Source of the DNA: Asparagopsis taxiformis
Lineage: Eukaryota > Rhodophyta > Florideophyceae > Bonnemaisoniales > Bonnemaisoniaceae
Length of the DNA stretch: 64,000 nt
Direction: 5' to 3'
Assembly: GCA_030407315.1 (NCBI GenBank)
Contig: JALQPE010002428.1
Location: forward strand, 1 to 64,000
Part shown: positions 1 to 38,316 of the stretch, one piece after another
Layout: each line of letters starts with the position of its first letter
Position numbering within the stretch: the first letter of the stretch is position 1
Notes under the pieces: generated by a model
What the model was told of the DNA's origin: nothing
The model's input: the letters and a program-made list of their open reading frames with translations, nothing else
Database searches by the model: none
Position numbers and translations under genes: made by a program

Positions 1-3000
1 TGACGTGGTGAGGTAAACGGGTTCGATTGCATATATGCGCTAGAGGTACATACTATTAGGTGTAGATTGATGGAAAGGGCTAAACGCTTTGTGGAGGTAT
101 CAGGATCAGGTAGAGTCAGAGGTGCTGAGCGGGTGCAGCGTAAGGTTCATCAGGACTGAACGTAGGTAGGGAATGTCTTGTCCGGACAGTATAATGAGGG
201 AAGCTGAGAGACGGGAAGCGCACTCGGAGGTACCACAATTGTGGATTTCATCGTCTACACAACATTCGAACAGAGAACCGATGAACGAACGAGATTGCAT
301 TCGGATTACAATGGGAGACAATAGTATCATGAATACTACAGCGGAGAAGAGCAATTCTCCTTCTGCTGAAGAGAAAAGCATCACTATTGCTCAGTACAGC
401 TCTTCTAAAGTGCAAAGTTGATCCTCGCAAAGTGAAATTTCCGACAGTGACCTCCCGTTTGGTGCGACCGGTCGTGTAAACGAACTGGCCAGCATTTCAT
501 GGATAGAGGTTTCTCTACCACTGGAACTATGATTACAGTCTGCAAAATGGGAGATAACGAAGGAGACGAGTTTTACTGCATCGATGGCTCTCATCGCATA
601 GCTGCTCTGCAACTATGCCTGGAGAAGTACTCAGGAAAGAACAGGGATTCCTTGGAATTGGTTTGGGTACAACAGTTGATTGCGCCGAACGGGCGTCTAA
701 TTTTCGATGCGCTGGAGGTTCTGAAACTGTCTCTCGAAGCCAATATACAAACTCACGATGTGTCGCTTCTGTGAGCATTGCCGACAATGTGTGTGCGGTC
801 ATAGAGTTTCTCAGGTTTTCCAACCAGATGGATCTCCTGTTGTCCGGCTTTTCCTATTCTGAAAGAAGTGAGCTATATTCTGCCGTCCGACAGGAACCGT
901 TCGGAGAACTCGTATAGGCAGTACATCAACATTGCGAAGGGGTTCAATCGCACAGACAGCGTTGCTTTCGTGTACTGGAGCTCTATCCTAGCGTTTCAAT
1001 GCTTTGGATAGGAACAGAGAAATCGAGGATGCAAGAACCGAGGGAAGAGATACGACTTTTTCGAATTGACTCTGCCGATATGTACGGGTGCGTGCTCGAT
1101 CCTGTCAATAACGCAATATTCCGCAATGGCACGGACGGACGCGGGACGCGCGATAAGGAGTGGTTCCAGTGGTTTGTGCTCGAGATGACAGCGTCGTGGA
1201 AAAAATGAGGAGGAAGAGAGGACTTGTCAGAAATATCGGAAGCGGAAGTCCGTTCACGATGCGCACTGGCTACTGGCTCTGTTGGGCCATCTATGATATG
1301 GCAGAGGTCGTCCGCAAATGGTTGAACTCTTCAACGATGGAGGAATTTGTGCGAACGGATTTGGCAGCAGAAAACGCGAAGGAGGTCGGGGATAATGATC
1401 ATCGCATTGGAGAGCGCATTGTATTCGTCCTTGTCGACTTTCATGACGACGTGGTAGACAGAAGCAGTCTGAGAACCAAGAACGGGATGTTTACAAACAG
1501 TTTTTACGACAAACTGGAATATGCTACGGGACAAAGGCAATGCAGGAGACGAAAGCGGAGGAGGAGGAGGAGAGGAACGGAATCGCATGACCCCCGGAGA
1601 AATAGAAAAAGCACTTGTTGTGGCGCCAAAGCAGAAGACGAAGAAGCACCTACTGCCGCAGAACAGGGAAATAATTCTACAGAGAAGGAAACGGTGGAAC
1701 TTCTGGTCCTGTTCAAGCAGAAGAAGGAGTATCTGCCGAAGCCCAAGTAGAGCAGGAAGTTTCTGCTGTTGTGGAGGAAGAACAGGAAATTACTCCCAAT
1801 GTGGTGGCTGAAGAAGTGATTCCTGCTGTCGCGACGAAAGCAATAGAAGAGGCACCTCTGAGCACCCCGAAAGAAGCAGAAAGACCGTCCTGCCGCAGCA
1901 AAAGAGGGAGGACAGGAACGTCCTGCCACGCGTCTTGCAGCAGCTGAGAAGAGGGAAGCAGAACGTCTGCTGTTCTCCAAAAAAGAACAGGAACGTCTTT
2001 CAGCTTCAAGGGCAGAGCGGGAAAGTCGTGCCAGGGATAATTTCGCCGGGAAGGATTGTCAGAGAAGATCTTCCTCAGGGAAGGAAAACAAGCGGCGATA
2101 CGCAAAGTCTGGATATCAACTTGGACAATAGTGGTCGCATGGACATAGACACGCCTGGACAACAAGCTGGAGATGCGCAGAACCGCTCTGTGATATTGAA
2201 ACTTCGAATCAGGACACCAGAAACTTACAGCACTAGCCCGGCCGAAGTGGACAAGGAGAATTCGGGAAGAAGCAGGAGTTCTGGTGGAAGCGGCGATGAA
2301 AACGAGTCCAGGTTGCATAAGAAGCGAAGAAGGGAAGATACTAGCGCGAAGTTTTCTGAGCCCAATACGCCGGATGACAACATTGAGATTGGGCCTCCCC
2401 GGGAAAAGAAGAGTAGAGTCAATGCAAGAAAACGAACGACTGGAGAAGAAGCACCACTCTTCAAGAGTGGTGCTTCTTAGTGAAGTTCACTGACGAGCAA
2501 GAAAACTCCCTTCCAGACCGCACATTCGCAGAGGACATACCTGAGAAGCTGCCTTTATGCGTTCCTTCCAACTCGAGAATGAAGTATTATATCACAGAAG
2601 AAGACATTGATACAATCCGGACGGAGATAATGGAAGCAGCTGCAGGGTACTCTACTTTAGTATGTCCCCTCGGTTCTTGTGAAAGCCAACAATACTTCAG
2701 CTACCAGAGAAGAATGATCGACGAGCTTGGTTACGTGGTGTTGCAAGACATTTTCTCTTCTACTACAGTGGGAGCAGCTACGCACGAGTTATTCACACAG
2801 ATGGCCAGCACATTCCAAGGTACACAAGGGCTCAAGTGCAAGTCAGAAGAACCCGTGGAAACCACTTCGACCAAAAAGACAGCACTGGTGTATTCAAGAC
2901 GGACCGGAAAAGCATCTGCGATGAACTTGAGCAAGAAAGCGCGCGGCAGTACAGGAACAAGCTGATTCTGGAGCTAGGTAAGGCGATTTGTGCGAAGAAC

Positions 3001-3701: not shown

Positions 3702-3879
3702 CTGACAGCAAAGTCATCGTTACGATGACTTTGCTGTAAGAAATCAAATCATTACAGTGGCCACAATTTTTACCGGGTAAAAAATTCTTGCTGATTTTTT
3801 TACCCGGTAAAATTTTCTCACCACTGTAATCAAACCTTTCCTTACAGCAAAGTCATCGTAACGATGACTTTGCTGTAAG
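3702..3879. repeat. Pair of 39-bp perfect palindromes (type 1)
   Basis: Two copies, 3702-3740 (first arm slightly altered) and 3841-3879. Each has the arm CTTACAGCAAAGTCATCGT, a single central base (T or A), and the exact reverse complement of the arm. Between them lie nested palindromes TTTACCGGGTAAA and TTTACCCGGTAAA, bounded by ATTACAGTGG and CCACTGTAAT, so the whole block is an inverted-repeat structure. Confidence 0.9.
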
Positions 3880-4474
3880 CATCCCGGGTAAACAGCTTCG
3901 GCTGTAAGCGGTTGGGAGTTTCGTCCGTCCCCATCCCTGGGAAGGGTGAGAAGGGAAGTGTGGAGCCGGGAACATCGTACAACGATGGTTTGGACGACTG
4001 TTGACGGCTCTGGGGAGCACTCTGCGTCGTGCAAGCCTGGTTTGCGCTGGCTGCACTACCTGGTATTGAACGGTTCTGTGCGCAAAGTTTACTCATGAAG
4101 GAGGTAGGGTGTTGTGTACCACACCAACCATAGTTACTAACATTTGCAGGTACTCTAGTGATGTAATATTATTCTATTTCTAACTATACAATGATATTAA
4201 GTAAGTCAGATGTGCACAGAGCAGGTCTAAGCCTAGCACGGTAGAGAAAGATGGAAGAAGGATTGAAGGGTAGGCATGCAGAGGTATGAAGGCAGCAGTA
4301 TGTGTAGACTATGGCAGTGGTAAGAAAATATTTCATGCACCAAAGGGTGGGCAGAGTGACATTAGAGAGGTGGTGTGTAGGGGGAAGGTAGGTGGAGATG
4401 ATGAAGGAGGACAACAGAAACGAGAGCGAGGGTTGAGACCAACGGCTTACAGATGGAGCAGTTTACCAGGGATG

Positions 4475-4624
4475 CTTACAGCAAAGTCATCGTTACGATG
4501 ACTTTGCTGTAAGGAAGGTATCATTACAGTGGCCATGATTTCTTTACCCGTAAAAAAATTCTGGCCGCTGTAATGAAAACGTTTTCTTACAGCAAAGTCA
4601 TCGTAACGATGGCTTTGCTGTAAG
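4475..4624. repeat. Second pair of type 1 palindromes
   Basis: Copies at 4475-4513 (central T) and 4586-4624 (central A, one mismatch GATGGC in the right arm), separated by a spacer beginning with ATTACAGTGGCC and ending GGCCGCTGTAAT. The array sits about 230 bases upstream of the ATG at 4856, so it bounds that gene on its 5' side. A single copy at 30821 bounds it on the 3' side. Confidence 0.88.
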
Positions 4625-4855: not shown

Positions 4856-5817
4856 ATGGCTCAACAATCCCAACGCTTTCGACCGCCAGGTGCGCTCTGC
4901 CAGCCGCCGTGACAAACGATTCTCCCACTCCTTCTCCTCTCCTTCTCCCTCTCCTCTCCTTCTCTGGCCCCCTGTCCCCATGGACGTTTGCGAAGCTGCT
5001 GCAGCGCGACCCAGCTCAGCCCAGCACCTAAGCCCGTCCCCTCCCCCCCTTCCGCTTCCGATCCCGCGGTTGTCCGACATCGACGCTGGCGTTCCCGCAA
5101 CTCCGCTTCCGGCTCAATCTGCCGAAGCGGCGCCAGCCGTCGAGGGATCTGGTGCTCCTCTGCCTAGTTCGCCTGCTCCGGACATGATCATCGCGTCGGG
5201 CAGGCACTTGGCAGAGGATGCGGAGAAGGTCGATGATCACAACGCTCGTGACATCGTACCGAACAGCCTCTCCGCAGCACAGGCTGGCCTACCCTGGCAC
5301 AGTGCCCACCCGGTGGATGTGGACTACGATATAAGTCCGGAGACCTGCCGAACATTCCAGTCTTCATTTCCCCCCTGGATGTTTCTCCTCCGCAGTCGTG
5401 TCCAGGGTGGTCAGGCCGCATCGCGTTGATGAGTTGAAGAAAACGTTTCTCACTCAGGGATTTTCCGTGATTGCTTCACGCGTGTCCGTCTGCGAGGTGA
5501 TTGATTCCAATGCAAAAGTACGACTGCAATATGTCGATGAGCTCACCGAGTGACCGCATTGAAGGCCATTCTCGAGTCGGCTGGACCTGCTCCTGCGAAG
5601 GACAGTCCAGAATGGGAGGAGTTTGTCAGTTCAGACATTGTACCGTCGATTTGGAACCATTCCAGTCGACTTTCTCCTCCCACCGACTCGGCTTGGCCGG
5701 GATGTCTTCTGCTCCGAAGAAGTACTCCCGCTTTCACGCTGATGAACTTCCACACCCACAATGTCAGCGAGGTAACAGTTGCTGACAATGTGTGCTCTGT
5801 GATGGAGTCATCAATAT
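4856..5817 (+). pseudogene. ParB-like/dioxygenase gene 2, 5' part, interrupted by element A
   Basis: An ATG at 4856 follows a CT-rich leader. The first ~500 bases code for a Pro/Ser/Ala-rich low-complexity region in the frame open over 4890-5429. The ParB-like domain follows at about 5400-5570: the reading VVRPHRVDEL...TQGFSVIASRVSV matches the same region of the gene at 38142, and an expected DGAHR motif is broken near 5534 where one G of GATGGAGCTCAC is missing. After it comes VTVADNVCSVMESS (about 5772-5813), matching SIADNVCAVIEF of the paralogue. Coding sequence stops abruptly at element A and resumes at 27646. At least two frameshifts plus the 21.8-kb insertion make this copy non-functional as it stands. 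Confidence 0.75.
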
Positions 5818-5960
5818 CGTCTGTGTTCTCGGAAATGGACGCGGACGTCCACAACCTCTAGTACACCTAGTATTACTAGGCGGACGTCCATGTTCTCCAG
5901 TATTTTTGGATGTCCGCCTAGAACTGGACGTCCATGCGGTCTAGTACGTCTAGTATTACT
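5818..5960. repeat. Left terminal inverted repeat and subterminal CTAGTA motifs of element A
   Basis: The terminus CGTCTGTG is followed by GGACGCGGACGTCC, then repeated CTAGTA/TACTAG words and GGACGTCC palindromes (for example near 5880-5890 and 5930). The same words occur at the right end and in element B, as expected for transposase-binding subterminal motifs. Confidence 0.8.
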
Positions 5961-6820
5961 AGGGCGACATTCAATGTTTCTAGTACCACGGATGTCCCCC
6001 TCGGGATGGACTTCCGCCATGTCTATGTCCACCTAGGACGGGCGCCGGTTCAGAAATTCAAAAATTTCGACCCCAGAAATTTCTGCCGCCGTGCTCGACA
6101 TGGATGTCCGCATCCATCACGGCGACCACTCTATTTTTCCTTGTCGGTCGACTCCAATTTCGTCTTTAATTTTTTCATCCTCTCGCTCACACCCCCTTCC
6201 TGTTGGTGCTCACCTCCCCCGTACTGTACCTCAAACACCCCCAATACCACTCTAGCACGCATTTTCAGATACCTATCCCCGCTTCCACGGTGCACACCTC
6301 CATTCCATACCTACTTTTCTGCTCTACCGTACAGATTTCGTATAACCAGTCCTCATACTACCTCAGAATAGGGCAAAACACCCCCTATCTCCTCGACCAT
6401 GCTCTCCCCCATCACCTTTGAAACGTATTGTTCTTCAGTACCCTCTCTCCTCTACCCTCAACCCCTCTCCTTCGCCCTCTACACAAACTTCCCCTGCAGC
6501 TTACTCTTCCAAAACCTCTCACTCCCCATCCCGTACCCGACCTGCTCCACCCCTCCCTCCCTCACCTGCTCCATGCCCCCACGCCATCCGCATCTTCGAT
6601 ACCGTATACACCACCACCACCGGCCCACGCTCCCGCACTGCGGGGTGGCTCCCCCGCCGTATCCCCAGAAACCTCCCCGCTCTGAAACACATATCAACCC
6701 CCCACTTCGCACCCTTCCTCCCACTCCCCTCCCTCCCCAAATACAATAACCCCCTTCTTCTCCATCACATCCCCACTCACCACAGCCAGAACAGACGCCA
6801 CCCCCTCCCCTTCTTTCTCC

Positions 6821-7155
6821 TCACTTTCCTAAAAACCCTCCTCTCGGCGCCTTCAACCGCACCCTCCTACGGTCCCACCTAAACACCTCCTCCGCCCTCA
6901 CTACCCCAACACCCCGCAGCGTCTCCCCAATCCCCATAATATGCTTGTCGGCACTCCTCTCCGAATCACAATCCATTCTAAACCCGCACTCCGTACATTT
7001 CCACCTCCCCCTGTACCATCCCAAGATTCCATCCCCCCACAGAACACATCCTCATACCACAGAAGAATTTTCTTCCTCTCATACCTCATCCTTAAAACCT
7101 CCATCAGCTCCATGTAAATTTCGATGAAAATATTTTCTCTACTATGCAATCTCAA
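6821..7155 (-). CDS. Small zinc-finger-like ORF at left end of element A (frameshifted)
   Basis: Read in two overlapping frames (6901-7155 and 6821-7024), this gives the same protein as the intact 129-residue ORF at 48154-48543 of element B: a basic/Glu-rich N-terminus (EVLRMRYERKKILLWYEDVF), then WKCTECGF...CDSERSADKHIMG, a Cys2-Cys-His pattern that could bind zinc. A basic tail (RWDRRRVRLKAPRGG) follows. Here the first codon is TTG instead of ATG and there is one frameshift, so this copy may be inactive. Function is unknown; conservation in both elements suggests a role for the element. Confidence 0.45.
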
Positions 7156-7619
7156 ACATGTATGAGCCTATGCCTTTCCGCTTTGTCAACCCTGAATATT
7201 GGTACTCATGTATTCATAAAATAGGGCCACCCACATCCCTATCCCGTTCTGCAAGCTTTACAAACCACTAGACGCATACTCCACAACTATACAACAAACA
7301 CTACTCGCTATTTCAGACGACGCGGTACACAAGTAGCGTAGTGTCAACCTTCCGTGACGCCTTCCCTGATGCGTACAAGTGGGAAACAAGTCTAGACGTA
7401 TATCAGAACTGAGTGCGGGAATTTTCGGCACAGGAGATGCTGGGCCACCAAATTGATTTTTCGGAAATTTTAGAATTTCTGGGCTGGCCAGCAATGCAAT
7501 CGAGCTGGACATCCACCGGACGTCCATTTCAGGTTGGTCGCGAGAGGGTGGGGCGGGACCATGATGAAACAAGGACCAAGACCTTTCCCTGACGTGTTGA
7601 GCCTGAAATCGACCCTTCG

Positions 7620-9000
7620 TGAGACGCGATTTTGGCTTACAGTTGGTGCTAATAGAAGCCAGTGATAGCCCCGATCGGGGCGGCAGCCGGCTCCGGCTTA
7701 CAGTTGGTGCTTACAGACGCCAGTGATAGCCCCCGATCGGGGCCGGCGGTCGGTTCCTGGGACCGTTGTGGCCAAATTAGACACCCTGATTTGAATTAAA
7801 ATTTGGGCTATTCTCAAAAACATGCACATGTGAACATGTTTTTGAGATGGGGGTGTGCCGTACGGCACAATCGACCGCCCAAATCGTTGATTTTTGCAAG
7901 ATTTTTTGTGCCCGAAATTTTAGAATTTCTGGGCTGGCCAGCAGTGCATCTGAGCTGGACATCCACCGGACGTCCATTTCAGGTTGGTCGTGTGCTGCCT
8001 ACATCCACGCATTGCAGAAACTAAGCCAGCGGGTTCACTACTAATACAAAGTACACGGAATATGAGTAACGTGATAGGTGAGTAGTGTTTGTGTTGAGGG
8101 AGTAAGGCGGGACCATGATGAAACAGGGAAAAAGATGTCACCCAAGCATAACTTAGGCTTCAAGCCTGGAATCGAACCTTCGTAAGACGCGATTTTGGCT
8201 TACAGTTAGTGCTTACAGAAGCCAGTGATGGCCCCGCTCGGGGCGGCGGCCGGTTCCTGGGGCCGTTGTGGCCAAATTAGACACCCTGATTTGAATTAAA
8301 ATTTGGGCTATTCTCAAAAACATGCACATGTGAACATGTTTTTGAGATGGGGGTGTGCCGTACGGCACAATCGACCCGCCCAAATCGATGTTTTTTGCAA
8401 TATTTTTTTGTGCCCGAAATTGTAGAATTTCTGGGCTGGCCAGCAATGCATCTGAGCTGGACATCCACCGGACGTCCATTTCAGGTTGGTCGTGTGCTGC
8501 CTACATCCACGCATTGCAGAAACTAAGCCAGCGGGTTCACTACTAATACAAAGTACACGGAATATGAGTAACGTGATAGGTGAGTAGTGTTTGTGTTGAG
8601 GGAGTAAGGCGGGACCATGATGAAACAGGGAAAAAGATGTCACCCAAGCATAACTTAGGCTTCAAGCCTGGAATCGAACCTTCGTAAGACGCGATTTTGG
8701 CTTACAGTTAGTGCTTACAGAAGCCAGTGATGGCCCCGCTCGGGGCGGCGGCCGGTGCCTGGGGCCGTTGTGGCCAAATTAGACACCTTGATTTGAATTA
8801 AAATTTGGGCTATTCTCAAAAACATGCACATGTGAACATGTTTTTGAGATGGGGGTGTGCCGTACGGCACAATCGACCGCCCAAATCGATGTTTTTTGCA
8901 ATATTTTTTTCTGCCCTGAATTGTAGAGTTTCTGGGCTGGCCAGCAATGCATCTGAGCTGGACATCCACCGGACGTCCATTTCAGGTTGATCGTGTATCG
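7620..9000. repeat. Tandem array of ~500-bp type 2 palindrome repeats
   Basis: About three head-to-tail units. Each contains GGCCAAATTAGACACC, then a hairpin with arms CTCAAAAACATG / CATGTTTTTGAG around CACATGTGAA, then the perfect 14-bp palindrome GTGCCGTACGGCAC, then GGACATCCACCGGACGTCC. Hairpins lie near 7813-7850, 8311-8348 and 8815-8850. The array lies downstream of the 3' end of the gene at 9332-13189. Short open frames inside it are products of the repeat. Confidence 0.9.
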
Positions 9001-9331
9001 TGCACGTCCACCCATTACCGGAAGCAAGTAGGCGATGAAGCACGTACAAACCCAATTGTTCTGCTATTTCTACCATAGACCATCGAGTCTAGAGATGTGA
9101 GGGAATCGTCCTGGAAATCATGCTCCAACCCACGAGGGAATGGACAATCTAGTTTGAAAGCATGGAACGGAAGTACATTATACTAGGTTCATAGATTGGA
9201 AGTGATAAAGGAGATGATTATATTCTCGATAATTGTTTACCAAAGTAGTAGTTGTTAAGCTATCTAGCCGTCGGAAAATTGTTCTTCCTCTTCGTCCTCA
9301 CTATATTCAGGATCTCCCGGCAGAATAGGCA
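9001..9331. other. 3' flank of the ParB-dioxygenase gene
   Basis: About 330 bases between the repeat array and the stop codon of the minus-strand gene. I see no gene here; it probably holds the 3' untranslated region. Confidence 0.5.
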
Positions 9332-27165: not shown

Positions 27166-27167
27166 TA

Positions 27168-27515: not shown

Positions 27516-27599
27516 GACGTCCGCATCCAAAAAATTTTTATTTTTTTTGGACGCGGACGTTCATTTGTTCTAGTAAATCTCGGGGCCGACTAGGACCCG

Positions 27600-27645
27600 T
27601 ACTAGAGAGACTGGACGTCCGCGTCCACTTCCGAAAACACAGACG
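27600..27645. repeat. Right terminal inverted repeat of element A
   Basis: The segment from GGACGTCCGCGTCC through CCGAAAACACAGACG is the inverse of the left terminus, with two mismatches in the outer 34 bases. Coding sequence of the interrupted ParB-dioxygenase gene resumes at 27646. Confidence 0.88.
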
Positions 27646-28342
27646 ATCCACCGCCTGGGAAAGAAGAAGATCGAGCCGACCGTTCAGTACATTAAAGAAC
27701 GGAAAGCGCTGAGCTGGATTCGTCCGAGACAGCTCATGCGCTACGTCTCCATCGCCCGAGGTTTCAAGACCATTGAAAGCCCTGCTTTCAAGTACTGGTC
27801 GAGCATCCCGAACAGGCCGGAGTTCGTGCAGTTCTCTTCGACCGAGGATCTGGCTGGTTGTACGGTGAACTTGTTGTTCAATGGGTCGTTCAGGAGTGCT
27901 CCGGATGTGCAGAAGTGTTTCATCCTGGAGATGACGGCGCGCTACACTTGTAGCCGTCGGTCGGCCGGGCTGAAACCGTACTCGGTTGGCACCATTGGGC
28001 AGGAATGGATTGCTGGTTTGTTGGAAATCTTCGGGTACGTGAAGGAGGTGGCCGAGTATTGGAACGTGTCGGATGTGTTGAGGATGCTGGATGGGTCAAT
28101 TCCCAGCCGGGGTGACCCGAGCAAGAGCTTCGACATTCGCTCGCGCGTTGTCGAAGTTCTTGCTCAGATGGTCCCCAAGAAGGGGTGCTGGGCAGAATTC
28201 CGTCCCAAGGAAGGCCCCCCGATGGTTACAAGTCGGAGAACATTTTTCCCCGTAAGAAGTCTGTCTTCGGGAAGGACGCCAGGAAAATGCTCCTGCGCGT
28301 CACTGGTTACCGCGACATGATTATGCGGAACGCTTTCACGCG
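27646..28342 (+). pseudogene. ParB-like/dioxygenase gene 2, middle part after element A
   Basis: Coding resumes in the frame ATC-CAC-CGC-CTG and runs through LMRYVSIARGFKTIES..FKYWSSIP, matching YINIAKGFNRTDSVAFVYWSSIP of the paralogue at 38142. This is the helical region between the ParB-like and dioxygenase domains. The long open frame is 27736-28320. Near 28200-28340 the reading passes through two more frames (GPPDGYKSENIFPRKK, then into 28343), so at least two frameshifts lie here. Joined to 4856-5817 it would complete the N-terminal half of the protein. Confidence 0.75.
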
Positions 28343-30316
28343 ATGTACCCAGACATCCCACATGCTGCGCTCCCAGCCACATGTGGTGATGATGCCCCCA
28401 TCCCTTCCTCTTCCAATTCCTTGCCCATCCCTTCATCCTCCATCCCTTTGCCCCCACCACCTCAACTGGAATCTTCCAGCAATTCCGAGGTTGCCCCTGT
28501 TCCTCTCACTACCCCTGCCGTGTCTGCATCCTCCCCTGCGGTGACCCCGGTCAAGCCGACTGCGCGTGGTCCCCAGGCTGGCAGTGAACAGTCTGGTCCA
28601 GTTTCCCACGCCGGGACTGGTACCCCCAACCGTCCTGTCCAAGCCGCGCAGGAGCAGGTCTCACCGGCTTCGCAGCCTGAGCCTGCGACTCCGGCTGCCG
28701 AGCAGCACCCTGCTGCTCCGGCCCCCGCTGTCGAAGCTTCCCGTTCTGCATCTGCTAACAGTTCGGGAAGCTCCAGCGATGACAGTTTCGTCCCTTCACC
28801 ATCCGGTGGGGTTGGACAGAAGACGGTTGCGAGGATTTCGACGGAGGGCCCTACTCCCGAGAATGTGGTCGAGGGCAGCAGTGCGAAGGGCGGTGCAGAT
28901 CCTGACGAAGATGTCATTGAAGTCAGTGATTCTGCACCGCCCGGAGTGGAAACTTCTGGGAGGAAAGTGATGCCCAGGAGGAGTACCCGCCTGCAAGCGA
29001 GTCGTTCCGGTCGTGGTGGAACGGCGGGTGGTGCTGTGGAGGTCGTCGAGCTGGAGAGCGCCCCCGAGGATGCGGGTGAAAACTCCATCCTCGGGAAGCG
29101 TAACTTGGAAGCCGCTTCTGCGACGCCCGAGCCTTCTACCAAAAAGAGAAGGCTCGGTGAGACTTCATCAAAGTCGTCGTCAAAGAAATCCAAGTCGGCT
29201 TCCCGAGGTCGCTCTCGGGAGCCGGTTCTCCAGTTCGACGACGCCCAGGAGAATCCCATTCCCGACAGCATCGTCTATGAGAATGTGGCCGCCGTTCTCC
29301 CCAGCGCAATTGCGTCTGGCAGCCGGATGAAGTACTATATGGAAAGTACGACGGTGGAGACGGTTCGGGCGGAAATGAGGGCGGCAGCATTCCAGGTAGC
29401 TGCATCGCCGGGTGCTGAGGATACGGTGGTGGAACAGTACTTTGCGGTGAAGCGGGCGTTGCTGGAAAACTTGGGGGTTATTGTTTTGGAACGCTTGTTG
29501 GAATCGTCCACGGCTGGGAGTGCGACGCATGAGCTGTTCGGTCACTTCGCTAGGCAGTTCCCGCTGGTTGAGGAGGTTGAAAAACCCTCCCAGCAGTCTG
29601 ATTCTAACGATGACGACAGGGAGCCACAGGACGAGCCGCCAGCTTTCGCAAAGCCCGGCTTCGATCCTTCGCCGTGGCAGTTCATCCACAACGTGGGTGA
29701 TGCGAAGGACTGCATAGATGGTGGTCGTGGGCGCCTCACTCTGCCGCGGCGTGAGTTGTGCGACAAGTTGGAGGAGGAAAATTTGGATATGTATAAGAAC
29801 AAGTTGGTGGCAGAGCTTGCTCTTGGTGTTTTTGCGGAGTTTCTCAAGCTGGGAATGGAGGGTGAGGATCCTGTCTTCTTCCCGAAGACAGGATTGCGGC
29901 TGCTTCTTACAGCAGATGGGGCTGCGGACCAGGATGGGCACACGGACTTCAAGGTAACGACGAAAAGTGTTGGAAGTCCTACCACGTCTCCATCATATTT
30001 CATGATGTCGAGCGGAGCCGATGGGTTCTCTATAGTAGTTGCCCCTTATAGTCATGTATGCCTGGCCAGTCCGGGCGCCGATATGTGGAAGGTTCCCCCT
30101 CTCATCTTTTGGGTGCCACCCTATTCCGTATTGGTTGGTCGCGGTGACCTTTACCATTACGGGGTCGGCTTCAGCCGAGGAGATCTTCCTGCAGGCGAGA
30201 AGTTAGTCTATGGCCTGCCCACGCGCGGCCACATCTACTTGAAGACGGAGAAGGACGTCCTCACGGACCACATCCACACCGTCGAATATTACAAGTACGA
30301 TAGGAGCAATAGATAG
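28343..30316 (+). CDS. 2OG-Fe(II) dioxygenase domain of gene 2, 657-residue open frame
   Basis: Residues 1-300 are a disordered Pro/Ser/Glu-rich linker. A conserved block follows, SRMKYYMESTTVETVRAEM (about 328-346), the same as SRMKYYITEEDIDTIRTEI in the paralogue. The dioxygenase double-stranded beta-helix is about 480-640, with DGHTD (H533, D535), SPSYFMMSSGADGF, and DLYHYGVGF (H605) as the distal iron ligand. ATG at 28343 is the first in frame, but the true start is probably upstream at 4856, before element A inserted. Alone this ORF could make a dioxygenase without the ParB-like part, if transcribed. It is bounded downstream by a type 1 palindrome at 30821. Confidence 0.8.
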   Translation: MYPDIPHAALPATCGDDAPIPSSSNSLPIPSSSIPLPPPPQLESSSNSEVAPVPLTTPAVSASSPAVTPVKPTARGPQAGSEQSGPVSHAGTGTPNRPVQAAQEQVSPASQPEPATPAAEQHPAAPAPAVEASRSASANSSGSSSDDSFVPSPSGGVGQKTVARISTEGPTPENVVEGSSAKGGADPDEDVIEVSDSAPPGVETSGRKVMPRRSTRLQASRSGRGGTAGGAVEVVELESAPEDAGENSILGKRNLEAASATPEPSTKKRRLGETSSKSSSKKSKSASRGRSREPVLQFDDAQENPIPDSIVYENVAAVLPSAIASGSRMKYYMESTTVETVRAEMRAAAFQVAASPGAEDTVVEQYFAVKRALLENLGVIVLERLLESSTAGSATHELFGHFARQFPLVEEVEKPSQQSDSNDDDREPQDEPPAFAKPGFDPSPWQFIHNVGDAKDCIDGGRGRLTLPRRELCDKLEEENLDMYKNKLVAELALGVFAEFLKLGMEGEDPVFFPKTGLRLLLTADGAADQDGHTDFKVTTKSVGSPTTSPSYFMMSSGADGFSIVVAPYSHVCLASPGADMWKVPPLIFWVPPYSVLVGRGDLYHYGVGFSRGDLPAGEKLVYGLPTRGHIYLKTEKDVLTDHIHTVEYYKYDRSNR

Positions 30317-31163
30317 CATATCAGAAGTATTAAAACCTATACTACTGTTCCCTGCTATAAAGTTCTGTCTTTCTCATCTCAACATTGTTACCTTAGCCCA
30401 TTTTTCAGTTCTCATCTATACATCTGTCCTTCATCTCATAGTTTAGTGCTACTCAGCAGATTGCTTGCTACTTTTTAATATTAGTCTACAACGTTATATG
30501 ATTTTACTAGCTAGGCCGTAGGGGGAGACTAGTTTCAACCCTTGACAACGCGCAGATTTCGACTACGAGAGCCGTCACTGTGATAAATTATTTGTAGAAT
30601 TTTCGTCTATCTTCCCACCTACACTAGGCTACCTATATATATACAGGGTATAACCTGAACAGAGACCACGTGAGGTAAAATACTCCTGAGAGCTGCTCAC
30701 AGCCGTACAGACCTTTGCTGAGCAATTTACCCGACTTCAAACTTCGCTTCTTACCTTTACCAGGATGAGAGAAGGACGAAACTCCCTGCTGCTTACAGCC
30801 GAAGCCGTTTACCAGGGTTCCTTACAGCAAAGTCATCGTAACGATGACTTTGCTGTCAGCATCCCCGGTAAACGGCCCGCACTGTAATGGGGTGACTGCT
30901 TCTCCTACATCGCTCTCTTACTGGTGTTCTACATGCTGCGTTGCTACACAATTTCGCACTCACATCTTTCTAGTTTCTCTCCCTTTCGTATCCATAGGTA
31001 TAGCAGTTGAAAAGTGGATAGTTTGCACTCCAGGCCGCAGATGCCTTCCTGCAGTCATGTCACGATTGTTGTAGTGTAGTCTATAATATCTAGCGCTCTT
31101 GGAAGATGATGCACAGTCTATTGTCTCTGTCAATGCGTGTTTACTCAAATCTATCAAAGTAGC
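30317..31163. other. Intergenic region with a type 1 palindrome
   Basis: AT-rich, no gene seen. It holds one type 1 palindrome at 30821-30859 (last arm ends CTGTCAG) preceded by GCTTACAGCCGAAGCCGTTTACCAGG, a sequence also found next to the copies near 3665, 3880 and 4445. The genes on either side converge on it. Confidence 0.7.
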
Positions 31164-33421
31164 TCAGTTAGCTGGCCAATATTTTCTACCATAGTCAGCA
31201 AATATCTCCTCATCAGCTTCAACGTCTCTGGTCAGAACGACCTTGACAGCATGGGGATTCTTGATATTTGAAGCAAAGTCCGGTTTGTCTATGGCATCGC
31301 CTTGTCGAAACTCGGCTGACTGTGTTCGACTCACCTCGGTCGCTTTCTCCGTTCCGTCAATGACCCGACAATCATTGAGGTAGCTGGTACAATTATAGAC
31401 CGCTGGAACGAGCCAGACCTTCCGAACAGGTGCACCCCTCCCTATGTACGTGGTTTCCAATTCCATGTTGTAGTCCTGGAACCTCTCTCCTGTGCACCCA
31501 AATCCTTCCGGGCCGTACATCACTGATCTCTGCGGTTCCGAGTCTCGAATCTTCGCATAGAAAATCGTCCCGTTGTACCAGCCAATGACCGTCCCCTTCT
31601 TCAGTTTCTTCGCCGCGAATACGCCAAACCCACCACCTCTTACCTCCGATTGCGAAACATAGACACCGTAGAATGCGGCATCAGCAGCCAGAATCGCGTC
31701 CGGGTCTATGCTCCAAAACGAGTGCATGTCCTCGGCCGGCCACTGGTCCATAGGCACCCCGCTCAATCTGTGAAGCATCGACCCGTCCTTCTTCATTGAC
31801 GCAACGAACACAAGCAGATGGTTCGGCAATGCTGTCACAGCAGGCAAACCTTCTGGTGCATCTGAGATGTGCTTCTGACGAAGCCTTGGAGCTTTTCCTG
31901 TGACCGGTACCGACTCGTCCCCAAGAATACTCTCCACCTCACGCTGCAAGATCCCCCCATATCGCCCGGCTTTCACCTCACTGACGAAAGCATGCAGTAT
32001 CCACTCCTGCGATGCATCGTGGCACCTTTTTTCCTTCTCACACCCAATGAACCGACGATACGTACCATCCCTCAACGTCATACACGCTATGGCTGTGCTG
32101 TATGTTCCCGAGAAGAAATCCATCACGATATCGTTCTGCTTCGAAAATCGTTCCAGAAGCTCACGAAGAGTGGTCAACGCCTTCTGCTCATGGCGCAGTC
32201 GGTTGTTCTGCCCATCGTATTGAGCTTCACCAGCCGACAACCTCGGAACATTGTCAATGGCGTTAGTGAACCCAGGGTGCCTCGATATGTCCGGATTGTG
32301 CAACCTGTAATCCACCATATCGTATGCAGCCATACCCTTCCCCCGCTTATACGCATGGATAACGAAATCGTGCATATTATGCAGTGTGCACGTTTTCGTC
32401 GATGGATTGGACGTAAAGCTGTGTGGTCGGCGAGATAGCACGACTGGAACACTGTCCACAATCATCTTGCCAGGCTCGGCATTTCTGATTGCATCCATCC
32501 ATGCCACGAGTTGGCGCACGCTGGAATAGATTAGAGCATGACCGCCAGGCCGAAGAACTCGAACTATTTCACACGCAACACTCGCCAACTCTTCCGGCTC
32601 CAGAATATCGTACTCCGAGTTTTCTCTGCCGCCTTCCCGCCTCGTGTTGAATGGAGGATCAGTGAGCACAAGCTGAACACTGTCCTCCAACACACCATCT
32701 TCCAGGAAATTAATTTTGTCCTCCACCTCTTTGGCTACATCAGTAGCGTCACAATTCACAGTGTGAATGTAACGCCCCATCACAGCTTCCAGCTTGGTGA
32801 CATATTCCGGCTTGGATTCCTTTCCGACGTCAACGAGCGGTGCTTCTGTAGGCGATACAGTGTCAACCTCCATAGCGTCATCCTCGGCCGCACCTTCTCT
32901 TGTTGCTGTTTCGCTAGCAACCGCCGCATTATCGTCCTCTCCACCACCGCGCTCCAGCCTAGCCTTCTTCCTCTGTGGCTCCAGACTATCCTCTTCTATA
33001 TCCTCGCTGCCATTGTTTGGCACTGCTGCGGATATTTCCATCTGCGCAGGTGCACCTTCAAGGATGCCAGGCTCGGGCGTATCCTCAAGACTGTGCAACT
33101 CATCCATGGTCAGAGGAAGCTTTCGTTGCTCTCGGGTTCGCAATAACCAAGCCTTCAGCCTCCTCTGACCATCCAGGGCATGAGACGTGTTCAACTTGGC
33201 TCGCATGAACGAGTTCAATCCGAACTTGTCAGGAGTGTCGAAAAGCAAGGCTCGAAGTCTCTGCATCAGCTGACCACGCTCGGCGAACACATTCACCTCA
33301 GTGACACATTGGCGTATCGACAGCAGGAAGGCGCTTGTCAATGATCGCAGCCTTGCATCCACAGCCACTGGAAGGTCGGCACAGAACCCGTTTTCACTGT
33401 CTACAGTTTTCGGGACAATGG
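31164..33421 (-). CDS. DNA amino-methyltransferase/SET-domain part of a ParB-MTase-SET protein
   Basis: The frame is open from 33421 down to the stop at 31164 with no ATG at its 5' end. It continues the protein at 33422-34630 after a one-base shift near the run GGAAAAACC at about 33425. Counting from the GTG at 33368, motif IV is LTDPPFN (D237-F240), followed by the AdoMet motif VMDFFSGTYSTA (D417 on): beta-class order as in the paralogue at 15628, with Phe replacing Tyr, a change tolerated in known enzymes. The C-terminal SET domain has GGGFGVFAAKKLKKGTVIGW, SYLND and EIFADYG. A helical region and an acidic linker precede the methyltransferase. Likely a nuclear dual DNA/protein methyltransferase; targets unknown. 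Confidence 0.83.
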
Positions 33422-34630
33422 TCAGGTTTTTCCGATGCTACTCGACCGCGCAGCCATCAGACCGATTCGGAGTGACCTGAAGCAAAGGCTCGCAGGATCG
33501 AATACCATGAACGGCCAGCACATCGATTCAACATCCTCATACCCCAACACTCTTGCCCCGGTATCCCACGCAGCTAACACACGGTCGACAACAAATCCAA
33601 GCTGGTTGGCTTGCGCACTGGATGTTGCAATTCCAACCATTCCACCACCACCAATGGCCCCGGATGTGGCTCTGGCCCGCCTAGATGGCGCACTGCCCAT
33701 CTCCTTACTGCGAATAGCCAAGATACACTGGCACATCATAACCATCAGCCTCCTGAACCGCTTCTGGCTAGCCTGCAAAGAATCTTGCATGTCGGATGTA
33801 GCGCCGTCTAGAAAGTACCTGCTCGAAAGCAGTTCGCGGTTCAGTGGAGAGGACAATTCTCCGCGGGGTGTCTTGCCAAACATTTCGACGGCACGAGAAC
33901 TAGTCACCCCCACCTGTTTCGGAAACTCAACCATCCTCGGAGAATCACCCATCTCTGCATTGAGTCCCCATGCATGACAAAACATTTGCCACAGACGCAA
34001 ATCAATCGAACTCGAATCTTCTGCTCGGTGATACGGCCGAAGCACAGCCAGGATAGACATGCATGAGCTGTACTGCGGTTTACCACTCAGGCTTGAAGCA
34101 ATTTGGCCGCTTGGATCGCAGGATTTGATCCAGCCCAACACATCAGCCATCCTCACAGACGAAATATGAGCGTACTTGTCCTTTCCGTTTTGGACCCAGT
34201 ACTCGTCTCTGAGATCAACGGCGATCATCAGATACTCAACAAACATCATGCGCCTTTGCAGGCCTGCAATGTCGTTGGATGTCGTCGCTCTCACACGGTC
34301 CAGCACAACAGCAGTACTGCTGTTGGTGTCCGCCACGATAGACTCTTCTCGCATAGGAATCGTAACGCCAGGAGGAAAGACGCCCTTCTCCATTCCACGT
34401 ACAATTGCCATGCAGCGGTGCGCTCCATCCAATATCTCCAGAACGCCTTCTCGAAACCTGCCAGTCACGGGATGAGCTGTGTCATAACCGCTGTTGCGAA
34501 TGCTCTCCATGAGCGCTTCCACATGACTTGCATCAACATCGCGAATCGATACGAATTTGCTGACTTGATTGGGGTCGATGAACACCCATCCGTCGTGCTT
34601 TTCACCGTGATTGTGGAACGTTCCTTCCAT
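33422..34630 (-). CDS. ParB-like domain plus helical region, N-terminal part of ParB-MTase-SET
   Basis: The ATG at 34630 (MEGTFHNHGEKHDG) is preferred. The ParB-like domain spans about 10-95, with VSIRDVDASHVEALMESIRN and ILDGAHRCMAIV (DGAHR at about 68-72), the classic ParB N-domain pattern. Residues ~115-400 are helical and match by eye the N-terminal half of the methyltransferase at 15628. The ORF ends SSIGKT-stop at 33422, but the next frame continues without a break into the MTase-SET ORF, and the alignment with the 15628 protein spans the junction. I read 31164-34630 as one gene of about 1160 residues with one frameshift (real or sequencing error). Confidence 0.78.
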   Translation of the reverse strand: MEGTFHNHGEKHDGWVFIDPNQVSKFVSIRDVDASHVEALMESIRNSGYDTAHPVTGRFREGVLEILDGAHRCMAIVRGMEKGVFPPGVTIPMREESIVADTNSSTAVVLDRVRATTSNDIAGLQRRMMFVEYLMIAVDLRDEYWVQNGKDKYAHISSVRMADVLGWIKSCDPSGQIASSLSGKPQYSSCMSILAVLRPYHRAEDSSSIDLRLWQMFCHAWGLNAEMGDSPRMVEFPKQVGVTSSRAVEMFGKTPRGELSSPLNRELLSSRYFLDGATSDMQDSLQASQKRFRRLMVMMCQCILAIRSKEMGSAPSRRARATSGAIGGGGMVGIATSSAQANQLGFVVDRVLAAWDTGARVLGYEDVESMCWPFMVFDPASLCFRSLRIGLMAARSSSIGKT

Positions 34631-34777
34631 GGCGAACAAAGGTAGAGTTTATAAGAAAGGGATAGTTGGTTGCTGCTTGACCAGGGTGGCGCAAAGCAGA
34701 AGTTGGTTGTTTAAAACAAAGTGTCAGCGAGTGGTAGCACTTCGGTGGCTGTTTCCTTTCCACCCCTGTCCGAACCT

Positions 34778-35761
34778 TTACAAGATAACTACATCGACTG
34801 TTAGCTCAATAATCAATGTAATACTAAAGTAATACTCAAAATATTTTTCCATGCAATTTATTGGGCCCCGTAACATCTCTAAGCGTATCTTTGTAGTCCA
34901 ACAGTAGTTGACATTGAAGGGAGGCTGTAGCAACTTCTCCCTGGAAGTTCGCAGTGATAGATGGGACCGGATAGGATGCTGGTACCTCACCGAAGAACGA
35001 CCCTCCGCGAATCCCATTCCTCCGTGATACACGTCCGTTCGGCATACAAGCAGGGAATACGGTGGGATGCGCACGTTCGTCACTGGCACACGGTACTTGT
35101 CTTTCGCTGGATGACTTAGGCACACATGGCTGAACTTGGCGATACGAATGATGAACCCATCCGCACCAGCAGCCATCATGAAATATGATGGCGAGTTGAG
35201 AGGACCAGTTCCAGTTCCCTCACGGACGGGAACATCGGTATGCAAAAGCTGCTCCTGACTACCTTCTGCGGTCAAAATCAGACGAAGACCCGTTTCTGGA
35301 AAGACCACCGCTTCTTCTCTTCCAAACCCGAGCTTCAGGTTCTCCGCACAAATCGCCTTACCTAGCTCCAGAATCAGCTTGTTCCTGTACTGCCGCGCGC
35401 TTTCTTGCTCAAGGTCATCGCAGATGCTTTTCCGGTCCGTCTTGAATACACCAGTGCTGTCTTTCGGTCGAAGTGGTTTCCACGGGTTCTTCTGACTTGC
35501 ACTTGAGCCACTTGTAGTACCTTGGAATGTGCTGGCCATCTGTGTGAATAACTCGTGCGTAGCTGCTCCCACTGTAGTAGAAGAGAAAATGTCTTGCAAC
35601 ACCACGTAACCAAGCTCGTCGATCATTCTTCTCTGGTAGCTGAAGTATTGTTGGCTTTCACAAGAACCGAGGGGACATACCAAAGTAGAGTAGCCTGCAG
35701 CTGCTTCCATTATCTCCGTCCGGATTGTATCAATGTCTTCTTCTGTGATATAATACTTCAT
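34778..35761 (-). CDS. 2OG-Fe(II) dioxygenase domain of ParB-dioxygenase gene 3
   Basis: Begins at the ATG in SRMKYYITEED, but the frame is open further upstream and belongs to the ORF at 35758-38142 after one shift. The dioxygenase fold shows LLHTDVP (H174, D176), SPSYFMMAAGADGF, FSHVCLSHPAKD, and DVYHGGMGFAEGRSS (H246, with a following Arg as a possible 2OG ligand). The last ~50 residues differ from the inverted copy, because homology ends just before them. The MKYY block and the dioxygenase are clearly homologous to 28343-30316. Confidence 0.8.
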   Translation of the reverse strand: MKYYITEEDIDTIRTEIMEAAAGYSTLVCPLGSCESQQYFSYQRRMIDELGYVVLQDIFSSTTVGAATHELFTQMASTFQGTTSGSSASQKNPWKPLRPKDSTGVFKTDRKSICDDLEQESARQYRNKLILELGKAICAENLKLGFGREEAVVFPETGLRLILTAEGSQEQLLHTDVPVREGTGTGPLNSPSYFMMAAGADGFIIRIAKFSHVCLSHPAKDKYRVPVTNVRIPPYSLLVCRTDVYHGGMGFAEGRSSVRYQHPIRSHLSLRTSREKLLQPPFNVNYCWTTKIRLEMLRGPINCMEKYFEYYFSITLIIELTVDVVIL

Positions 35762-38316
35762 TCTCGAGTTGGAAGGAACGCATAAAGGCAGCTTCTCAGG
35801 TATGTCCTCTGCGAATGTGCGGTCTGGAAGGGAGTTTTCTTGCTCGTCAGTGAAGAGTGGTGCTTCTTCTCCAGTCGTTCGTTTTCTTGCATTGACTCTA
35901 CTCTTCTTTTCCCGGGAGGCCCAATCTCAATGTTGTCATCCGGCGTATTGGGCTCAGAAAACTTCGCGCTAGTATCTTCCCTTCTTCGCTTCTTATGCAA
36001 CCTGGACTCGTTTTCATCGCCGCTTCCACCAGAACTCCTGCTTCTTCCCGAATTCTCCGTGTCCACTTCGGCCGGGCTAGTGCTGTAAGTTTCTGGTGTC
36101 CTGATTCGAAGTTTCAATATCACAGAGCGGTTCTGCGCATCTCCAGCTTGTTGTCCAGGCGTGTCTATGTCCATGCGACCACTATTGTCCAAGTTGATAT
36201 CCAGACTTTGCGTATCGCCGCTTTGTTTCCTTCCCTGAGGAAGATCTTCTCTGACAATCCTTCCCGGCGAATTATCCCTGGCACGACTTTCCCGCTCTGC
36301 CCTTGAAGCTGAAAGACGTTCCTGTTCTTTTTGGAGAACAGCAAGACGTTCTGCTTCCCTCTTCTCAGCTGCTGCAAGACGCGTGGCAGGACGTTCCTGT
36401 CCTCCCTCTTTTGCTGCGGCAGGACGGTCTTCTGCTTCTTTCGGGGTGCTCAGAGGTGCCTCTTCTATTGCTTTCGTCGCGACAGCAGGAATCACTTCTT
36501 CAGCCACCACATTTGGAGTAATTTCCTGTTCTTCCTCCACAACAGCAGAAACTTCCTGCTCTACTTGGGCTTCGGCAGATACTCCTTCTTCTGCTTGAAC
36601 AGGACCAGAAGTTTCCACCGTTTCCTTCTCTGTAGAATTATTTCCCTGTTCTGCGGCAGTAGGTGCTTCTTCGTCTTCTGCTTTGGCGCCATCAACAAGT
36701 GCTTTTTCTATTTCTCCGGGGGTCATGCGATTCCGTTCCCTCTCCTCCTCCGCTTTCGTCTCCTGCATTGCCTTTGTCCCGGTAGCATATTCCAGTTTGT
36801 CGTAAAAACTGTTTGTAAACATCCCGTTCTTGGTTCTCAGACTGCTACTGTCTACCACGTCGTCATGAAAGTCGACAAGGACGAATACAATGCGCTCTCC
36901 AATGCGATGATCATTATCCCCGACCTCCTTCGCGTTTTCTGCTGCCAAATCCGTTCGCACGAATTCCTCCATCGTTGCAGAGTTCAACCACTTGCGGACG
37001 ACCTCTGCCATATCATAGATGGCCAACAGAGCCAGTAGCCAAGTGCGCATCGTGAACGGACTTCCGCTTCCGATATTTCTGACAAGTCCTCTCTTCCTCC
37101 TCATCCTTGTCCACGACGCTGTCATCTCGAGCACAAACCACTGGAACCACTCCTTATCGCGCGTCCCGCGTCCGTCCGTGCCATTGCGGAATATTGCGTT
37201 ATTGACAAGATCGAGCACGCACCCGTACATATCGGCAGAGTCAATTCGAGAAAAGTCCGGATCTCTTCCCTCGGTTCTTGCATCCTCGATTTCTCTGTTC
37301 CTATCCAAAGCATTGTAAACGCTAGGGATAGAGCTCCAGTACACGAAAGCAACGCTGTCTGTGCGATTGAACCCCTTCGCAATGTTGATGTACTGCCTAT
37401 ACGAGTTCTCCGAACGGTTCCTGTCGGACGGCAGAATATAGCTCACTTCTTTCAGAATAGGAATAAGCCGGACAACAGGAAGATCCATCTGGTTGGAAAA
37501 CCTGAGAAACTCTATGACCGCACACACATTGTCGGCAATGCTCACAGAAGCGACATCGTGAGTTTGTATATTGGCTTCGAGAGACAGTTTCAGAACCTCC
37601 AGCGCATCGAAAATTAGACGCCCGTTCGGCGCAATCAACTGTTGTACCCAAACCAATTCCAAGGAATCCCTGTTCTTTCCTGAGTACTTCTCCAGGCATA
37701 GTTGCAGAGCAGCTATGCGATGAGAGCCATCGATGCAGTAAAACTCGTCTCCTTCGTTATCTTCCATTTTGCAGACTGTAATCATAGTTCCAGTGGTAGA
37801 GAAACCTCTATCCATGAAAATGCTGGCCAGTTCGTTTACACGACCCGGTCGCACCAAACGGGAGGTCACTGTCGGAAATTTCACTTTGCGAGGATCAACT
37901 TGCACTTTAGAAGAGCTGTACTGAGCAATAGTGATGCTTTTCTCTTCAGCAGAAGGAGAATTGCTCTTCTCCGCTGTAGTATTCATGATACTATTGTCTC
38001 CCATTGTAATCCCTGCAATCTCAGTTCGTTCAATCGGTTCTCTGTTCAAATGTTGTGTAGACGATGAAATCCACAATTGTGGTACCTCCGAGTGCGCTTC
38101 CCGTCTCTCAGCTTCCTCTCTTATACTGTCCGGACAAGACATTCCCTACCTACGTTCAGTCCTGATGAACCTTACGCTGCACCCGCTCAGCACCTCTGAC
38201 TCTACCTGATCCTGATACCTCCACAAAGCGTTTAGCCCTTTCCATCAATCTACACCTAATAGTATGTACCTCTAGCGCATATAATGCAATCGAACCCGTT
38301 TACCTCACCACGTCAA
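34910..38316 (-). repeat. Right arm of large inverted duplication (pairs with 1-3432)
   Basis: The sequence of 1-3432 reappears here in reverse complement, including upstream non-coding DNA (38143-38316 matches 1-172). The shared part stops just after the TGTCAACTACT shared by both copies at the 3' end of the gene. The arms are about 31 kb apart. The match begins at base 1 of the window, so the true arm may be longer. Confidence 0.85.
35758..38142 (-). CDS. ParB-like domain, helical region and linker of ParB-dioxygenase gene 3
   Basis: ATG at 38142 (MSCPDSIREEAERREAH). The ParB-like domain is about 85-160, with VTSRLVRPGRVNELASIF and CIDGSHRIAAL (D138, H141, R142). The helical region is about 200-450 (SIADNVCAVIEFLRF, YINIAKGFNR). 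An Glu/Ala-rich, low-complexity linker (about 470-640) is likely disordered or coiled-coil. The last ~45 residues are out of frame: near 35925 this copy has CCCGGG where the copy at 2399 has CCCCGGG, and restoring agreement makes the frame run on into 34778-35761. The full protein would be about 1120 residues. Confidence 0.82.
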   Translation of the reverse strand: MSCPDSIREEAERREAHSEVPQLWISSSTQHLNREPIERTEIAGITMGDNSIMNTTAEKSNSPSAEEKSITIAQYSSSKVQVDPRKVKFPTVTSRLVRPGRVNELASIFMDRGFSTTGTMITVCKMEDNEGDEFYCIDGSHRIAALQLCLEKYSGKNRDSLELVWVQQLIAPNGRLIFDALEVLKLSLEANIQTHDVASVSIADNVCAVIEFLRFSNQMDLPVVRLIPILKEVSYILPSDRNRSENSYRQYINIAKGFNRTDSVAFVYWSSIPSVYNALDRNREIEDARTEGRDPDFSRIDSADMYGCVLDLVNNAIFRNGTDGRGTRDKEWFQWFVLEMTASWTRMRRKRGLVRNIGSGSPFTMRTWLLALLAIYDMAEVVRKWLNSATMEEFVRTDLAAENAKEVGDNDHRIGERIVFVLVDFHDDVVDSSSLRTKNGMFTNSFYDKLEYATGTKAMQETKAEEERERNRMTPGEIEKALVDGAKAEDEEAPTAAEQGNNSTEKETVETSGPVQAEEGVSAEAQVEQEVSAVVEEEQEITPNVVAEEVIPAVATKAIEEAPLSTPKEAEDRPAAAKEGGQERPATRLAAAEKREAERLAVLQKEQERLSASRAERESRARDNSPGRIVREDLPQGRKQSGDTQSLDINLDNSGRMDIDTPGQQAGDAQNRSVILKLRIRTPETYSTSPAEVDTENSGRSRSSGGSGDENESRLHKKRRREDTSAKFSEPNTPDDNIEIGPPGKRRVESMQENERLEKKHHSSLTSKKTPFQTAHSQRTYLRSCLYAFLPTRE

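Follow-up and report, generated by a model that had tools for sequence, protein, structure and literature searches.

The first 64,000 nucleotides of contig C2302 (JALQPE010002428.1) of the red alga Asparagopsis taxiformis (genome 141 Mb, 3156 contigs), hereafter the window, contain six loci with modifier genes, all of which are cargo of nested, high-copy DNA transposons. Two transposon families with unrelated ends, termed A and B, carry, in recurrent order, a gene fusing an adenine-type DNA methyltransferase to a SET domain (MTase-SET) and one or two genes joining a ParB-like domain to a dioxygenase domain, and each family has its own arrays of near-invariant palindromes (iterons) beside these modifier genes. 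A previous sequence-only reading had taken the loci for one epigenetic system; the two kinds of effector indeed travel together, but as transposon cargo and not as a host locus, a host epigenetic gene cluster being ruled out by the high copy number, the terminal inverted repeats (TIRs) and the target site duplications (TSDs). We are highly confident of the anatomy of the elements, dioxygenase fold excepted; that the dioxygenase domain truly adopts the 2-oxoglutarate- and Fe(II)-dependent (2OG-Fe(II)) dioxygenase fold appears likely from its conserved residues. As to function, we consider it an evenly balanced proposition that the elements practise addressed chromatin editing against silencing, that is, an anti-silencing function.

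Element A interrupts a gene of element B, that for the C-type dioxygenase, and a relative, element D, lies further downstream:
5818..27645, no strand: element A, a Plavaka-family transposon with the 34-bp TIR CGTCTGTGTTYTCGGAARTGGACGCGGACGTCCA and the TSD AT, inside the C-type dioxygenase gene of B
9332..13309, minus strand: A dioxygenase gene, a 1325-aa frame with its likely ATG at 13189, encoding a ParB-like domain (about aa 290-380), then a helical region, then the 2OG-Fe(II)-like domain with H1143-x-D1145...H1217...R1233 (residues counted by hand)
15628..18831, plus strand: A MTase-SET gene, 1067 aa, with helical region, N6_N4_Mtase and SET; no ParB seen
20269..21774, plus strand: frame of 501 aa, all profile matches below cut-off
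21852..24892, minus strand: Plavaka transposase region, in this copy two overlapping frames; 21852-24128 matches Plavaka PF18759 (1.7e-22), and 23789-24892, in a different frame, has no match
47231..59609, no strand: element D, which is related to A, shares its TIR and has 8 iterons

With two mismatches or fewer allowed, the A TIR gave 1352 + 1382 = 2734 matches genome-wide, against none for the reversed control. The TSDs of 10 other A-family TIR pairs measured 2 bp in seven cases and 1 bp in one, and were absent in two. The termini (CGTCTG..CAGACG) do not match the Plavaka reference termini, TGT..ACA or CATCA..TGATG, in the excerpted text of PMC12730594. Copy counts for A and B genes are lower bounds, taken among the matches listed: there are at least 35 copies of the A dioxygenase gene, stop-free and 99-100% identical, and at least 43 of the A MTase-SET gene. 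Across 30 A dioxygenase genes the median pairwise identity is 99.87%, so that amplification is recent; their codon variants (24 synonymous and 34 non-synonymous, versus a neutral ratio of 3.25) give a weak result on selection, because the copies were chosen by protein similarity. A divergent MTase partner stood beside the dioxygenase gene in at least 13 of the 35 listed copies, across a gap of 1957-2850 bp, and inspection by hand added a divergent MTase-SET in copies C254 and C1665. Beyond the A list, 44 further MTase-SET places on other contigs were found with the query P0004, a 1032-aa MTase-SET of other source (the only one of P0002-P0008 compared with the genome for closeness); as its closest match here reaches 37%, the fusion probably exists beyond this genome. 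A-family TIRs were also seen within MTase-SET coding sequence, in flanks L043 and L057, one of the two being not A-type by eye. A single unrelated 8-kb stretch held four long stop-free frames, for a DEAD helicase, a PCI-domain protein (best PDB relative, PCID2), a protein kinase and an E2 enzyme, and such frames would be expected of a eukaryote with a compact genome and few introns.

Element D is inserted in a Ty3-like gag (PF03732, 1e-6), and where A has a 2-bp TSD, D is flanked by 54 bp of gag sequence duplicated exactly; tandem repeats of 43 bp occur near the right ends of both elements (27085-27650 in A, 59132-59569 in D). D does not align with the dioxygenase, MTase-SET or transposase genes of A over 60 bp or more, and so keeps A's iterons and terminal repeats without its modifier genes. 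This bears on the idea that the enzymes work throughout the host, by relieving repression generally or by modifying RNA or protein, and that the palindromes are unrelated to them: enzymes of these classes have many possible substrates, and the A-type MTase-SET is without ParB, but family-specific arrays that persist in a gene-less relative make the idea improbable to us.

Element B, as represented in the window, comprises the following:
1..3432, plus strand: B dioxygenase gene, frameshifted copy 1, an inverted 97% duplicate of 34902-38315
4856..5817, plus strand: C-type dioxygenase gene, 5' part, with the ParB-like domain; frameshifted, interrupted by element A
27646..30316, plus strand: C-type dioxygenase gene, 3' part, with helical region and 2OG-Fe(II)-like domain
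31164..34639, minus strand: B MTase-SET gene, with ParB-like domain, helical region, N6_N4_Mtase and SET; the frame breaks after aa 390 and is open in other copies
34902..38315, minus strand: B dioxygenase gene, copy 2, with ParB-like domain, helical region, linker and 2OG-Fe(II)-like domain; the frame breaks after aa 748 and is open in other copies
39222..43024, minus strand: in the right part of B, a pair of frames that may be CACTA-type transposase genes, with a CxxC motif by eye and no profile match

The gene content of element B is one ParB-helix-MTase-SET gene and two ParB-helix-dioxygenase genes. In the copy on contig C353 these run in the order MTase-SET(+), C-type dioxygenase(-) and B-type dioxygenase(-), followed by sequence like 39222-43024, which is collinear with it at both ends (C353 18601-21599 lay outside the comparison). 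The window copy is rearranged: B-type dioxygenase(+) at 1-3432, C-type dioxygenase(+) and MTase-SET(-) are followed, at 34901/34902, by a second B-type dioxygenase(-) and the right part, which is broken near 45340, and contig C214 appears to have the same arrangement and spacing. Nesting of one B in a second B at 34901/34902 was considered and rejected, as seven further copies carry two different sequences before this point (five share one, two the other), which makes it an internal breakpoint and no terminus. The right end of B, given as ..CCGTAGTG or ..CAACACCGTAGTG, was read in eight copies; it is of CACTA type and had 1065 genomic matches at three mismatches or fewer and a control of 0. 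The CACTA label is provisional, since neither a left end nor a TSD could be located for B and no profile matched the putative transposase frames.

Four dioxygenase loci had been proposed from the letters. A ParB-like DG-x-HR domain, a helical region and HxD...H do share one frame at 9332-13309(-), but the number of different genes is three, one occurring twice, because 1-3432(+) is the inverted 97% copy of 34902-38315(-). Copy 1 differs from copy 2 by an extra stretch at 2446-2478, a perfect inverted repeat with 16-bp arms that looks like a templated insertion. The stretches 4856-5817 and 27646-30316 form a single gene split by the 21.8-kb transposon at 5818-27645, and are uninterrupted in a B copy free of the A insertion, that copy being frame-broken further on. 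As for the fusions described at 31164-34639 and 34902-38142, each occupies two frames in the window, but both are real because near-identical copies elsewhere read through as one frame. The B MTase-SET gene has at least 103 copies, with an open frame of at least 1150 aa in 70 of the 103 listed matches, and its frame of 408 aa in the window compares with a 1186-aa class in near-identical copies. For the B dioxygenase gene (at least 57 copies), a hand count gave 1087 aa in 34 of the 57 listed, one of which, C2584, is flagged with a TGA, and 787-795 aa in 17, including that of the window (795), several with further stops. An MTase-SET partner lay within 25 kb of at least 16 of these 57 listed copies, in convergent orientation in 13.

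Of the profile searches that the sequence-only reading had called for, those for the methyltransferase and SET families succeeded. The A protein (15628-18831, plus strand), which was rightly described as helical region, MTase and SET with no ParB seen, matched PF01555 (3e-15) and PF00856 (1e-6), and 31164-33368(-) of the B protein matched the same families (1e-16 and 2e-6, respectively). Both window proteins have DPPY before FxGxG and score above the PF01555 cut-off. The nearest solved relatives include DpnA (9e-16), MboIIA, CcrM, RsrI and EcoP15I, the last two being adenine enzymes; as the best of them are named adenine-specific, the domain is predicted to be a beta-class amino-methyltransferase of adenine type. 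The SET domains reach 29.6 and 28.7 bits (Pfam cut-off 22.4), with a weak EZH2 match (6e-4) among solved structures, and in most alignment rows the catalytic Tyr of DYG/HYG/SYG is present and the NH motif reads ND.

The ParB-like domain was recognised by way of PHROG: the B MTase-SET region matched phrog_4272 (1.7e-5) and phrog_1033, 'ParB-like partition' (0.003), as well as a Leptospira phage ParB-like protein (5e-5) and a plasmid ParB (2e-3). It also aligned to a viral-contig protein at 44% over 48 aa (E 1e-7), the sole confirmed of 76 pattern matches, and this relative, unlike any of the three ParB regions of the elements, passes the PF02195 cut-off directly. The similarity points to membership of the ParB/Srx superfamily for the B MTase-SET region. 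The viral relative (L082:3890-6951) stands directly ahead of a Mu-type transposase gene. Below cut-off only, the ParB region of the B dioxygenase matched DndB (0.11) and GmrSD_N (0.066). Designed 'Pizza' repeats, which matched the ParB profile in the solved-structure search, were taken as an artefact.

A shared front of ParB plus helical region had been proposed for both effector classes, and one half of it stands. With hhalign, the dioxygenase-type ParB profile aligned to the B MTase-SET ParB across 67 columns, DGxHR among them (P 6.5e-5, probability 64%), but the dioxygenase-type and MTase-type helical regions showed no profile homology (probability 0.04-0.15%, P 0.39-0.86), which rules out one helical module common to both classes at this level; what is shared is the ParB domain, with no demonstrable ParB-helix module, because only ParB aligns across classes. 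Within classes, homology connects the helical regions of the MTase-type proteins with one another, and likewise the fronts of the B and C dioxygenases (probability 99.8%); the A front aligns to these two in its ParB part only.

Homology links the dioxygenase domains of A, B and C (E 5e-13 to 8e-69), in which HxD...H...R is invariant; their assignment rests on these residues, since no Pfam, NCBIfam, PHROG or PDB entry matched them; for Tet_JBP, the Pfam search of the three domains returned 0 families at E<=10. Scans of viral and prokaryote contigs with the dioxygenase gave no lead, the viral contig scan with MTase-SET gave two MTase-like stretches, and two protein searches returned one protein apiece, each resembling this genome's own elements. 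An SNRNP27 match of 35758-38142 (0.0042 over 18 residues, below cut-off) was set aside.

Two further explanations turn on this domain inventory, in which neither a ParA-like nor a nuclease domain appeared above cut-off in the frames scanned. ParB-like proteins together with parS-like palindromic arrays could maintain an extrachromosomal form of the elements by partition; besides the missing ParA, however, effectors are fused to ParB and the copies are integrated, A with TIR and TSD, so that we think this very improbable. The enzymes might instead mark self from non-self among competing transposons, modification protecting kin from the attack of another element or of the host in the manner of restriction-modification. 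The methyltransferase is Type II-like, the two families have different palindromes, insertion is mutual (A inside B; copies inside MTase-SET genes at L043 and L057), and the weak, below-cut-off GmrSD_N match covers the ParB region of the B dioxygenase. With no nuclease, and with PADLOC returning only MTases, bar one weak mads_2 match over the MTase, among the best 25 matches per protein, we judge it to have a slim chance, comparable to that of host-wide action.

The iterons, on which addressed anti-silencing would depend, are located as follows:
3705..4621, no strand: B iterons with a 33-bp core, at 3705, 3844, 4478 and 4589 (the last with 1 mismatch)
7813..8870, plus strand: A iterons at 7813, 8313 and 8815, each a 34-bp inverted repeat, an 8-bp gap and a 14-bp palindrome
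13565..15201, plus strand: A iterons between the divergent genes, at 13565, 13951 and 15146
19174..19229, minus strand: A iteron downstream of MTase-SET
30824..30856, no strand: B iteron between the C-type dioxygenase and MTase-SET genes
38845..39098, no strand: B iterons between the B dioxygenase gene and the putative transposase frames, at 38845, 38955 and 39066

The B core, ACAGCAAAGTCATCGTWACGATGACTTTGCTGT, has 8 window sites (7 perfect, 1 with one mismatch) and 17 in the compared parts of C353 (16 perfect), and all B iterons lie in non-coding stretches between the MTase-SET genes, dioxygenase genes and putative transposase frames. Over the 17 sites of that one B copy, conservation is 98.8% in the core versus 54-66% in the 60 bp on each side. 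The A/D iteron consists of CTCAAAAACATGCACATGTGAACATGTTTTTGAG, 8 bp and GTGCCGTACGGCAC (97.6%), with 7 sites in A, 8 in D and none elsewhere in the window; its 34-bp repeat does not vary among these 15 sites, the far flanks being 73-74% and the near left flank 93% conserved. Both sets of conservation values are partly due to construction, because sites were gathered by a limit on mismatches to the core (four for B, eight for A). A sequence-blind scan for inverted repeats with short spacers and arms of at least 11 found 13 window loci, 7 of them the B core, and 0 in five mononucleotide shuffles; unguided repeat finding placed the B core inside units just 68-85% alike. Family-specific motif arrays in non-coding element DNA, as in VANC-type systems, are thus present in both A and B. 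A lone 38-bp perfect palindrome at 25489-25526, upstream of the Plavaka transposase frames, differs from the iterons.

Palindromes and methylation might alternatively control transposition, the methylation state signalling to the transposase that an end, or a copy just replicated, is free to move and the dioxygenase resetting it, much as Dam methylation controls IS10. The adenine type of the MTase, the presence of arrays and transposase in one element, and the recurrence of the A end motif GGACGTCC in iteron-bearing repeat units all suit this explanation. The palindromes, however, lie inside the elements, next to the genes for ParB and MTase, and the ends are marked by other repeats (GGACGTCC near the A/D ends, 35-bp units at 44791-45175 in B), and the SET domain would be left unexplained; we regard transposition control as unlikely, if the least so of the alternatives.

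Addressed anti-silencing would operate in the following steps: (i) the ParB-like domain, together with the helical region that follows, would bind the iterons of its own family, the bound protein perhaps being a clamp that spreads, and would so place the effectors on its own element; (ii) the MTase would add N6-methyladenine (6mA) to the element's DNA; (iii) SET would act on a protein close at hand, in the simplest case a histone, whose methylation would favour permissive chromatin; (iv) the dioxygenase would remove or oxidise a mark, either on that DNA or on its histones. The outcome would be escape from silencing, by analogy with VANC on Arabidopsis VANDAL elements, and gene-less relatives could be served in trans. 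The support is at the level of sequence, and function is inferred from it. In its full form, the proposal has unrelated superfamilies each armed with ParB-like proteins that recognise family-specific, parS-like palindromes and direct three activities, adenine methylation of DNA, methylation of histones and oxidative removal, to the element and, in trans, to its gene-less relatives; so stated it is tentative, and we would rather doubt it than not. In many eukaryotes adenine methylation goes with permissive chromatin, there through MT-A70 enzymes of another family (PMC12695648, in part), and the transposon-related CcTET of a fungus oxidises 6mA (PMC12730594), so that a transposon-related dioxygenase can act on this mark. 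No C5-methyltransferase matched in the genome in one intron-blind search, whose control was positive in 10 of 14 genomes, all prokaryotes; if the enzyme is truly absent, 5-methylcytosine is unlikely to be the substrate, which would more probably be 6mA or a mark on histones. The MT-A70 search of the genome gave no match, nor did its control, and is uninformative.

Several observations weigh against this proposal. The A-type MTase-SET, having no ParB, needs another route of targeting, and the mark that is written might not be the one that is oxidised. The SET NH motif is ND in most rows, none of the libraries tried matches the dioxygenase domain, and the absence of a C5-methyltransferase hangs on the single search above. 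As to the iterons, besides the share of their conservation that comes from how sites were gathered, six more inverted repeats of comparable size occur in the window, part of them within coding DNA; A and B iterons are both able to fold as DNA hairpins; and because GGACGTCC recurs within the iteron-bearing units of A, a role with the transposase is possible. The iterons may therefore serve a transposase or hairpin role.

What makes these elements of interest is that one transposon protein unites a DNA-addressing domain and an adenine methyltransferase, both of bacterial type, with SET, a eukaryotic domain, and that the element encoding it also holds a dioxygenase partner and candidate sites for the addressing. 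Should the palindromes prove to be what the ParB module reads, this module would be a programmable part for epigenome editing, and would allow a direct test of transposon escape from silencing, in a genome where one search matched no C5-methyltransferase.

Parts of this combination are already known. Giant Plavaka elements reportedly feature in Petroll 2025, which, like Iyer 2011, lay outside our literature search; within it we found no report of MTase-SET fusions with ParB-dioxygenase partners or of adjacent palindromic arrays. The novelty previously claimed for the fusion set as a whole must be narrowed, since ParB-MTase proteins on algal transposons have been reported (PMC12477816, in part); our literature search turned up neither the fusion to SET nor a ParB-dioxygenase partner, and as far as the excerpted sources go, ParB-MTase proteins, TET+ Plavaka elements and SET on transposons are known, and their combination with arrays was not found in print. 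Closest is Sola1-1_Ec32 of Ectocarpus, like A and B a giant DNA transposon (21.5 kb), with one accessory protein of 1104 aa joining a ParB-like domain to an N4/N6 MTase and proposed to bind and modify its own element; similar proteins are noted, by citation, in green and red algae. It belongs to another transposase superfamily, and the excerpted account mentions no SET, dioxygenase partner or palindromic arrays (PMC12477816). The fungal TET+ transposons are likewise of Plavaka/EnSpm type with a dioxygenase proposed to evade silencing, but theirs is TET/JBP, with no MTase-SET mentioned in that excerpt, whereas the dioxygenases of A and B have ParB and no TET/JBP match; Phytophthora HarbingerS and MuDR, cited in the same source, carry a SET methyltransferase on a transposon, with no DNA MTase fusion mentioned there (PMC12730594). 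Bdelloid N4CMT, as described in part of PMC8885841, also joins a bacterial-type, permuted PF01555 MTase to a chromatin domain and has transposons among its targets, but it is a host gene with a chromodomain, in contrast to transposon cargo with SET. VANC of Arabidopsis VANDAL is, like the systems of A and B, transposon-encoded and family-specific with non-coding motif arrays, with which co-evolution has been proposed; VANC21 binds a 9-bp motif (PMC5735166, in part), whereas A and B have long palindromes and catalytic enzymes; the likeness drawn here is one of function.

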